Shown in pieces: positions 25,466-56,663 of a stretch of 64,000 nucleotides of DNA (positions are counted from its first letter, which is position 1; the number at the start of each line of letters is the position of its first letter). The position numbers and the translations under genes are program-made. The stretch is taken from the NCBI RefSeq assembly GCF_025995175.1, contig NZ_BAPV01000004.1, forward strand, positions 186,001 through 250,000, in the 5' to 3' direction. Below the pieces are notes generated by a model. The model was not told the origin of the DNA. It saw only the letters and a program-made list of their open reading frames with translations, and did no database searches. This stretch comes from Asaia krungthepensis NRIC 0535. GTDB lineage: Bacteria > Pseudomonadota > Alphaproteobacteria > Acetobacterales > Acetobacteraceae.

Positions 25466-26554
25466 TCAGCCCACGTTCCGCAGCGGGGCCTGGGCGTGCT
25501 CGGTACGCAAGATGTCGATCTGGACGATCTCGCCCTGACGCTCGAAATACCAGAAAGTCCAGCCATTGCACGAAGGGGCATTGGTCAGAATGGCCCCCAT
25601 CTTATGGATGGAGCCGCGATGGCTGCCTGAGACAAGACTGCCATCGGGCATGACCGTCGCACTGACGCGGCGCTGACGATCAAAGAGTTCGGTCCCGGCG
25701 GGCAGGGCGCCCTGCTCGACAAAACTACCAAACGGTACGCGCGGCATCTCGCGCTTGGCGGGGGTGATCGCCAGTTGCTCATCCGAGAGACGGATTTCTG
25801 CCTCCACTCGGGCACGCGCCGCCTCGATATAATCGGGATGACGTTCAATCCCGATGAATCGCCGCCCAAGACGCTTGGCCATGGCGGCAGTCGTTCCACT
25901 GCCCGAGAAGGGATCGAGCACGATATCGTCCACGACGGTGGAAGCAATGAGCACACGATGCAGCAGGCTCTCGGGCTTTTGCGTGGGATGCAGCTTCAGC
26001 CCATGGGCGTTGCGCAGGCGCTCATTGCCGGTGCAAAGTGGCAGATACCAGTCGCTGCGCATCTGCATGTCGTCATTCAGCGCCTTCATGGCCTGATAGT
26101 TGAAGCGATATTTGCTCTCTGGGCCACGCGCGGCCCAGATCAGGGTTTCATGCGCGTTGGTGAAGCGTCGCCCACGGAAATTGGGCATCGGATTGGCCTT
26201 GCGCCAGACGATGTCGTTCAGGATCCAGAAGCCCAGATCCTGCATGATGGCGCCCAGCCGGAAAACATTGTGATAGGAGCCGATCACCCAGATCGTGCCA
26301 TCCTTGGTCAGCAGGCGCCGCGCCTCGGCGAGCCATTCACGCGTGAAATTGTCGTAGGTCGCGTAATCGGCGAATTTGTCCCAGGCGTCGTCCACCCCGT
26401 CGACCACGCTCTCATCGGGGCGGCGCAGTTCACCCCTAAGCTGCAGATTATACGGCGGATCTGCGAAGATGCAGTCGATGCTCGCATCGGGAAGGCTGCG
26501 CATCGTGTCGATGCACTCGCCGCACAGGATCTGATCGAGGGGGAAATCCTGCAT
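25466..26554 (-). CDS. ccrM: CcrM-type adenine DNA methyltransferase (GANTC)
   Basis: Transfers a methyl group to adenine in GANTC, the cell-cycle methylation system of alphaproteobacteria. The 362-aa beta-class enzyme has DPPY at 32-35, the AdoMet motif DPFSGSGTT at 214-222, and the CcrM-specific C-terminal domain (about 272-362) with SHRGSIHKMGA and a CNGWTFWY motif. The start giving MQDFPL overlaps the rnhB stop by one base (TAATG), so the genes are translationally coupled; the longer upstream frame only overlaps rnhB. Five GANTC sites lie in the region before rnhB, suggesting feedback by its own methylation. Confidence 0.95.
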   Translation of the reverse strand: MQDFPLDQILCGECIDTMRSLPDASIDCIFADPPYNLQLRGELRRPDESVVDGVDDAWDKFADYATYDNFTREWLAEARRLLTKDGTIWVIGSYHNVFRLGAIMQDLGFWILNDIVWRKANPMPNFRGRRFTNAHETLIWAARGPESKYRFNYQAMKALNDDMQMRSDWYLPLCTGNERLRNAHGLKLHPTQKPESLLHRVLIASTVVDDIVLDPFSGSGTTAAMAKRLGRRFIGIERHPDYIEAARARVEAEIRLSDEQLAITPAKREMPRVPFGSFVEQGALPAGTELFDRQRRVSATVMPDGSLVSGSHRGSIHKMGAILTNAPSCNGWTFWYFERQGEIVQIDILRTEHAQAPLRNVG

Positions 26555-27195
26555 TAGATGGCTCCGACCGGTTGGGCTGCGCACGCAAGGAGGGCGCGTA
26601 TGGGGGCGAATTCGCGCCGATGATGAGGGGTGACACCGGTCTGTTTCAGACCGGCCATATGCAGGGCCGTGCCGTATCCGGCATTCTTTTCCCAACCATA
26701 GGTCGTGTGACGTTCCGAAAGCCGTGTCATCAGCCGGTCACGAATGACCTTGGCGATGATCGACGCTCCGGCGATGGAGAGGCTCTTGCGATCGCCGCCC
26801 ACCACTGCAAGGGCGGGACAGCCCAGAGCAGGCAGACGATTACCATCCACGAGCGCCATGTCAGGCATGAAGCCCAGATGAGCCAGAGCACGCTGCATCG
26901 CCAGATGACAGGCCTTGCCAATATTGATCCGCTCGATTTCCGGGACCGATGCCGCGCCAAGACCGATCCTGACCGCAGGGTGGGCCATCAGCGCGGCGAA
27001 GGCAGCATCGCGCCGTTTCGCGCTCAGGCGCTTTGAATCGTCGATCATCGCAGCAAGGGGCGGCTCGGGGGGAGTGAGAAACACCAGAGACGCTGCGATG
27101 ACCGGCCCTGCGAGAGGGCCGCGCCCGACCTCGTCAAGGCCGACTATCCTCTGTTCCGGTGCCCCATTGGCAAGTTCGAGAGAATAGTCCGGCAT
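26554..27195 (-). CDS. rnhB: Ribonuclease HII
   Basis: Cleaves RNA in RNA/DNA hybrids and single ribonucleotides in DNA. The 213-aa protein has the catalytic Asp21-Glu22 in GLDEVGRG, the DDSKRLS motif, and VDGN, with the conserved acidic residues in place. The start is the ATG giving MPDYSL; a GTG 54 bases upstream only lengthens the N terminus. Its stop overlaps the ccrM start. Transcription starts from a region dense in GANTC sites. Confidence 0.94.
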   Translation of the reverse strand: MPDYSLELANGAPEQRIVGLDEVGRGPLAGPVIAASLVFLTPPEPPLAAMIDDSKRLSAKRRDAAFAALMAHPAVRIGLGAASVPEIERINIGKACHLAMQRALAHLGFMPDMALVDGNRLPALGCPALAVVGGDRKSLSIAGASIIAKVIRDRLMTRLSERHTTYGWEKNAGYGTALHMAGLKQTGVTPHHRREFAPIRALLACAAQPVGAI

Positions 27196-27240: not shown

Positions 27241-27315
27241 GAGTCGCACAGTCTTACGAATCGCTTTTGAATCACCCGAATCGCCCTGTAAACCCCATTC
27301 GCGCGCCGCTGAATC
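27241..27315. promoter_or_regulatory. Cluster of five GANTC (CcrM) sites upstream of rnhB-ccrM
   Basis: GANTC occurs at 27241-27245, 27258-27262, 27269-27273, 27278-27282 and 27311-27315. By chance one is expected about every 256 bases. The cluster lies between the terminator of the CsbD-like gene and the rnhB start, where the rnhB-ccrM promoter must be. Core promoter hexamers were not clear; TTGACA on the minus strand near 27331-27336 is a possible -35. Confidence 0.85.
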
Positions 27316-27337
27316 TTTTTTGTTGTGTCAATACGAG

Positions 27338-27365
27338 AAAAGGGGACCACATCACTGTGGTCCCC
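27338..27365 (-). terminator. Intrinsic terminator of the CsbD-like gene
   Basis: A perfect 10-bp stem (27342-27351 with 27356-27365) with a four-base loop, followed on the minus strand by TTTTCT. It isolates the CsbD-like gene from the rnhB-ccrM promoter region. Confidence 0.88.
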
Positions 27366-27418
27366 CTTCGTTTGACGGCGACACTGCCCAATCAGGGCCG
27401 CGTTCTATAAGCCTTGGC

Positions 27419-56635: not shown

Positions 56636-56663
56636 GATTCTCGTTCGATTCCCGTCTCGAATC
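56636..56663. promoter_or_regulatory. Three GANTC sites upstream of the rpsL promoter
   Basis: GANTC at 56636-56640, 56647-56651 and 56659-56663. They occupy the zone where UP elements or activators would bind. Another lies in the leader (56473-56477). Confidence 0.7.

Follow-up and report, generated by a model that had tools for sequence, protein, structure and literature searches.

The window analysed here, i.e., the whole stretch of 64,000 nucleotides from Asaia krungthepensis NRIC 0535, carries on its minus strand the gene for ribonuclease HII (rnhB) followed by the gene for CcrM, the adenine methylase that targets GANTC. The start of rnhB is the conserved ATG at 27195 (the protein begins MPDY), and its stop codon overlaps the ccrM start by one base (TAATG, 26552-26556); therefore, rnhB and ccrM very probably constitute one operon. 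Against NF050803 the methylase gave E=8e-186 and 617 bits, the strict cut-off of 830 not being reached, and it is 99% identical to the CcrM of Asaia sp. W19, the nearest named relative. A csbD-like gene lies upstream of the rnhB promoter region on the same strand. The features of the locus are as follows.

25466..26554, minus strand: ccrM, GANTC adenine methylase with a C-terminal RAMA domain (NF050803, PF01555, PF18755)
26554..27195, minus strand: rnhB, ribonuclease HII, first gene (Pfam PF01351 and NCBIfam NF000595, both over cut-off)
27241..27245: GANTC (GAGTC) in the predicted leader, at about +13 to +17, within a short inverted repeat; also present in Swaminathania
27258..27262: GANTC immediately before the predicted start point, at about -5 to -1, with a counterpart in many acetic acid bacteria
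27264..27269, minus strand: predicted -10, CAAAAG, 17 bp from the predicted -35
27269..27273: GANTC (GATTC) at offset 19 from the predicted -35, the class-wide offset also being 19; on the minus strand its final base doubles as position 1 of the predicted -10
27278..27282: GANTC (GATTC) at offset 10, in the spacer between the predicted -35 and -10; class-wide, the first site lies at 7-10
27287..27292, minus strand: predicted -35, TTTACA, counterpart of the class-wide TTGAC, its TT nearly invariant in the alignment
27311..27315: fifth GANTC, upstream of the predicted -35 and variable within Asaia
27342..27365, minus strand: terminator-like hairpin in the gap between the csbD-like gene and the promoter, the stem being followed by a short T run

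On the minus strand at 27332-27416, the BjrC68 sRNA family also scored below threshold (E=3e-4; 25.5 bits against a cut-off of 39), in a match that follows the csbD-like gene and takes in its terminator-like hairpin.

An earlier, sequence-only reading had called attention to five GANTC sites in 75 bases before rnhB-ccrM, where fewer than one would be expected, and both statements proved right: the sites start at 27241, 27258, 27269, 27278, and 27311, i.e., 46-120 nt upstream of the rnhB ATG, and about 0.13 would be expected in 75 bases at the local density. The cluster represents the maximum of GANTC density in the window, which as a whole is poor in this motif (109 observed versus 336 expected, a three-fold depletion). 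At the mean density of the window, about 0.05 (0.046) clusters of five sites in 75 bp would be expected in a genome of 3.5 Mb, and about 0.26 genome-wide if the non-coding density applied throughout. A search of the whole genome returned about 33 places with at least three GANTC in 75 bp, with five sites found only before rnhB and at most four elsewhere.

Four of the sites (27241, 27258, 27269, and 27278, spanning 27241-27282) are invariant in seven Asaia sequences, and the fifth, at 27311, is lost in one of them (L093) and displaced in another (L005). The stretch from the predicted -35 to the 27258 site is nearly invariant in the same sequences, while its flanks vary. Among the acetic acid bacteria, all 91 distinct regions upstream of rnhB contain two to six GANTC in 150 bp; in 72 distinct regions, GANTC is enriched 20.7-fold over the downstream part of the loci and reaches 31 per kb, with 15 control palindromes far below it (the next gapped palindrome, TTNAA, which is part of GATTCAA, reaches 5.6-fold). 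The N letter of these sites is T in 135 cases, C in 105, G in 97, and A in 45, and the use of all four letters is what would be expected if methylation sites were being kept rather than one fixed factor-binding sequence. The comparison across Acetobacteraceae, in which a lack of conservation among relatives had been named beforehand as a refutation, thus found the sites conserved, and it supports strong selection on the GANTC sites upstream of rnhB.

In an alignment of 31 of these regions TGATTCA is invariant, and conservation is highest in it, in the AA that follows, and in a TT located upstream. The TT with GANTC at both offsets (10 and 19) is present in 56 of the 91 acetic-acid-bacterial regions, and the -10 forms include CAAAAC, CAAAAG, CAGCAT, and CAGAAT. 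A single upstream pattern for all acetic acid bacteria was rejected, as it fails in 32 of the 91 regions; those lacking the exact core are mostly Acetobacter-like, and nearly all of them keep several GANTC. In Acetobacter and its relatives the sites lie inside an inverted repeat instead of the exact core. Such a repeat, of up to 15 bp with a loop of 7-9 nt, stands 20-65 nt before rnhB in the Acetobacter-like leaders (L183-L208), with GACTC/GAGTC in its arms and outer pairs that partly covary, and a second inverted repeat, of the TTTACCGG...CCGGTAAA type, is located further upstream. These covarying repeats suggest that RNA or operator roles may exist there as well.

For Asaia we predict a promoter with a 17 bp spacer between TTTACA and CAAAAG, and with GANTC at offsets 10 and 19 from the -35. 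The placement of the cluster where the operon must be transcribed, as the sequence-only reading had it, accordingly agrees with the prediction, the sites falling in the putative core promoter and leader. The -10 of Gluconobacter oxydans is lax, with T or C first and A second (PMC5756330), and CAAAAG agrees with it at positions 1 (C/T) and 2 (A). A plain sigma70 consensus scan of the Asaia rnhB upstream region gave no match, which the degeneracy of the predicted -35 and -10 would explain, and a TTGACA upstream of the 27311 site was rejected as the -35, as it is not retained across Asaia. On the minus strand, the extended motif YGAKTCK is fitted by CGATTCG at 27278-27282, and it is misfitted at the final base by TGATTCA at 27269-27273; this extended GcrA motif was unconfirmed in Brevundimonas (PMC7987155).

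Outside the acetic acid bacteria the GANTC cluster is found directly before ccrM and not before rnhB; therefore, we sampled 125 ccrM loci from 80 alphaproteobacterial families other than Acetobacteraceae. Families were counted by their assigned labels, with two genomes each counted as a family of its own, gene starts were fixed by motif and alignment, and the class-wide statistics were weighted by family, without a species tree. The 200 bp before ccrM hold a mean of 3.38 GANTC per locus, with arrays of up to nine sites; in 57 of the 80 families at least one member reaches three or more, and 15 of the 125 loci have none. The density peaks at 28.6 per kb between -100 and -51, versus about 1 per kb between -500 and -301, and the 7.5-fold enrichment is the highest among 16 gapped palindromes (the next reaches 2.05). 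When distances are counted from TTGAC, GANTC occupies two places, offsets 7-10 and offset 19 exactly (family-weighted counts of 32.0 at 19, 0 at 18, and 3.5 at 20). The resulting core, composed of TTGAC followed by two GANTC, the second of them usually lying exactly 19 nt from TTGAC, was recovered in 44 of the 125 loci (33 families), compared with 2.05 +/- 1.3 matches expected when TTGAC was rotated (maximum 7 in 500).

Where a GANTC stands at 19 from TTGAC (41 loci), A(+24) and T(+28) are invariant, and neither had been selected for. The most important bases of a sigma70 -10 are A at position 2 and T at position 6. As these two bases are invariant without having been used to pick the loci, we read the class core as a sigma70-like promoter with a -35 of TTGACN, a 17 bp spacer, and a -10 of CANNNT. 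Its layout is TTGAC-N-GANTC-N-TGANTCA-NNN-T, with two sites about one helical turn apart in the spacer between -35 and -10, and with the last C of the second GANTC as position 1 of the -10. A genome-wide search of 241 genomes found the exact pattern in 122, mostly once or twice in each, and many of the exact-core matches, among the matches listed, are the ccrM promoter.

The traits shared by Asaia (27264-27292) with this class-wide core are the TT at the -35, GANTC within offsets 7-10 and at 19, and the A at 24. The departures, i.e., TTTACA in place of TTGAC and G rather than T at offset 28, make the Asaia promoter a predicted degenerate relative of the core rather than a full member, and the acetic-acid-bacterial cluster appears related to the class-wide ccrM promoter. 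Judging from its place directly before ccrM in other Alphaproteobacteria, the cluster follows the ccrM promoter, not rnhB. That the operon starts with rnhB had been taken for a peculiarity of this DNA; the gene order is right, but the RnhB signature motif also lies at most 1.1 kb upstream of ccrM in 106 of the 125 loci outside Acetobacteraceae, and the pair is therefore old. What is special to the acetic acid bacteria is the overlap of the two genes together with a putative ccrM promoter before rnhB, a position that would be due to this overlap.

The promoter of Caulobacter crescentus ccrM resembles the present one in that GANTC sites precede the gene and, according to PMC3973325 (citing Stephens et al. 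1995), methylation most probably acts on ccrM transcription itself. It differs in being activated by CtrA, whereas the full CtrA box TTAA-N6/7-TTAA was absent within 250 bp upstream in all 115 acetic-acid-bacterial loci, and in that the widespread class core uses TTGAC and two spacer GANTC. A CtrA orthologue is encoded in the Asaia genome (54% identity; NF045991 316 bits, cut-off 350). Three loci of one family carry 5-7 GANTC around a CtrA box of TTAA-N7-TTAA without the TTGAC core. This family is probably Caulobacteraceae; its CtrA is 82% identical to a C. crescentus CtrA sequence. The earlier claim that the density in Asaia is higher than in Caulobacter is contradicted by the 5-7 sites of these loci. 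Their lack of the TTGAC core agrees with the loss of the GcrA target predicted for Caulobacterales (PMC7987155). No significant trade-off was seen across families between having a CtrA box and having a GANTC array (Fisher p=0.24).

GcrA reads m6A GANTC, brings the sigma70 polymerase to m6A promoters, and binds sigma domain 2 (PMC7403470), the part of sigma70 that deals with the -10. The Asaia genome encodes a GcrA (PF07750 over cut-off, C14:57017-57721), although a divergent one (NF050816 86.5 bits, cut-off 280), and the protein is present in all Asaia and in 35 of the 36 sampled genomes of the family, the exception being an incomplete genome. In Caulobacter, a GANTC between -10 and -35 accompanies activation at a defined time of the cell cycle (PMC4287350). 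The sequence-only reading had proposed a regulator that reads hemimethylated DNA; a reader of m6A GANTC is indeed encoded, but it need not be hemimethylation-specific and would likely be of the GcrA/sigma70 kind.

Taken together, we consider it reasonably probable that the ccrM unit has its core promoter and leader in this cluster, and that this promoter is methylation-sensitive and of the GcrA/sigma70 type, with CcrM feeding back on its own rnhB-ccrM operon. From the geometry of the sites we infer a scenario in which the two genes would be co-transcribed from the predicted promoter, CcrM would methylate the sites, and this methylation would change promoter activity, on or off, most likely through the putative binding of the sigma70 cofactor GcrA, acting on sigma domain 2 at the -10. 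Replication would render the sites hemimethylated and could thereby reset the promoter, which might time its control, and the additional sites, close to the start point and within the leader, might let more methylation events be read.

Several other explanations have to be weighed against this scenario. Coincidence, or a relaxed avoidance of GANTC in non-coding DNA, would draw on the higher frequency in the non-coding than in the coding DNA of the window (3.0 versus 1.5 per kb), and an excess of this kind has been reported for Alphaproteobacteria (PMC3973325); against the 31 GANTC per kb upstream of rnhB in acetic acid bacteria and the sites kept across genera at fixed offsets, its probability is next to nothing, and chance clustering is ruled out by the site counts, the genome-wide search, and the acetic-acid-bacterial enrichment. 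It is also improbable that an RNA hairpin or palindromic operator in the rnhB leader is the selected feature, with the palindromic GANTC coming along. The Acetobacter repeat, with GANTC in both arms and its partly covarying outer pairs, and a 12-bp palindrome around a central GATTC in Acidomonas would speak for it, but the GANTC pairs of Acetobacter themselves never vary, the N letter is free, other palindromes lack a similar enrichment, and the repeats change between genera while GANTC stays. Furthermore, no Rfam-described leader RNA lies over the promoter and leader, the sub-threshold BjrC68 match being upstream of the promoter, and an RNA hairpin was rejected as the main explanation, covariation being partial in Acetobacter and no two-sided pair change occurring in Asaia.

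The remaining two alternatives keep methylation and dispense with GcrA. One is that m6A, both at the upstream border of the -10 and where the DNA melts, directly alters opening by RNA polymerase without any reader, as could be imagined from the site that shares a base with the predicted -10, from the other at about -5 to -1, and from the sampled alphaproteobacterial genomes in some of which GcrA was not detected; it has no need for the extra upstream and leader sites, and since GcrA accompanies the Asaia-type promoter in every genome of the family that was inspected for it, bar one incomplete genome, we give it little chance. The other would invoke a different protein, one that recognizes pairs of helically phased GANTC in the hemimethylated state and that, once the DNA has been replicated, either sequesters the promoter or activates it, in a SeqA-like manner. 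In the Dam/SeqA system of E. coli, methylation sites that cluster at intervals of about one helical turn can be recognized while hemimethylated; this is an analogy only (another methylase and another site), and no SeqA is known in Alphaproteobacteria. In favour of such a protein would be the arrays of up to nine sites in 200 bp, the preferred spacing of 9-11 bp between neighbouring GANTC before ccrM, and a 10.5 bp periodicity over all pairs (family-weighted z=4.4; p for the best period 0.0035). The neighbour spacing is partly set by promoter geometry, however, and the periodicity comes mostly from nearest neighbours and is weak beyond 15 bp (z=2.3, p=0.016), and may therefore reflect the promoter core alone; long-range helical phasing was rejected for this reason. 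With GcrA sufficing as a candidate, a separate reader of this kind seems unlikely.

The preferred reading, a GcrA/sigma70-type promoter under feedback by CcrM, resembles the known GcrA-dependent methylated sigma70 promoters (PMC3667746; Haakonsen 2015 via PMC7403470) in its GANTC near the predicted -10 and in the presence of GcrA, and it differs from them in the two fixed offsets, the second site sharing a base of the predicted -10, and the extra sites. A prediction from single extended GANTC motifs had already placed ccrM among the core targets of GcrA in many orders outside Caulobacterales, with a loss in Caulobacterales itself (PMC7987155); in its available part, that study used one extended motif anywhere from -200 to +100, without promoter geometry, arrays, or relocation before rnhB. 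GANTC counts before cell-cycle genes were also given in another study, which left them without a conclusion (PMC2877005). In the open-access literature, to which our search was confined, no description of the fixed two-site geometry, the arrays, or the relocation before rnhB was found.

In the alphaproteobacterial cell cycle the timing of CcrM plays a central part, and what textbooks say of its control derives from Caulobacter, in which CtrA drives ccrM. We tentatively put forward, as a possibility rather than an expectation, a conserved alphaproteobacterial module in which the gene for the methylase has one GANTC built into its sigma70 -10 and another a helical turn further upstream, such that promoter opening would be a direct readout of methylation; autoregulation by CcrM would then be widespread and the CtrA form of Caulobacter derived. 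If the fixed two-GANTC promoter is common, ccrM might in most Alphaproteobacteria be governed by a sigma70 cofactor together with the methylation state, and Caulobacter would be the unusual case. The question of CcrM self-control is long-standing, and the core geometry names the exact bases to mutate, so that direct tests of whether CcrM methylation controls ccrM, and via which protein, become feasible in several laboratory species.

Additionally, a second double-GANTC promoter, TTGAC-N5/6-GANTC-N6-GATTC (often TGTGATTC), was observed in many alphaproteobacterial families (L387-L406, e.g., L393:1081-1491), a few bases before a short gene; all ten of the proteins tested match DivIC/FtsB, the septum formation initiator, and the promoter of this division gene seems to be built like that of ccrM. 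Smaller clusters were noted elsewhere in the Asaia genome. Three GANTC in 25 bp lie about 105 bp upstream of clpP (C8:102039-102063; L248:1540-1564), and their counterpart in another Asaia (G192 C6:90310) keeps the three sites with a changed N letter. Three further sites stand between rpoC and rpsL at 56636-56663 of the window, in a stretch that was considered as a tRNA and is not one; four other Asaia genomes retain this cluster, with N letters and intervening bases that have changed. Three-site clusters are also located just upstream of the genes for a TonB siderophore receptor (C2:89173-89221) and a MocR-like regulator (C4:102919-102961) and of hemE (C20:137326-137356).
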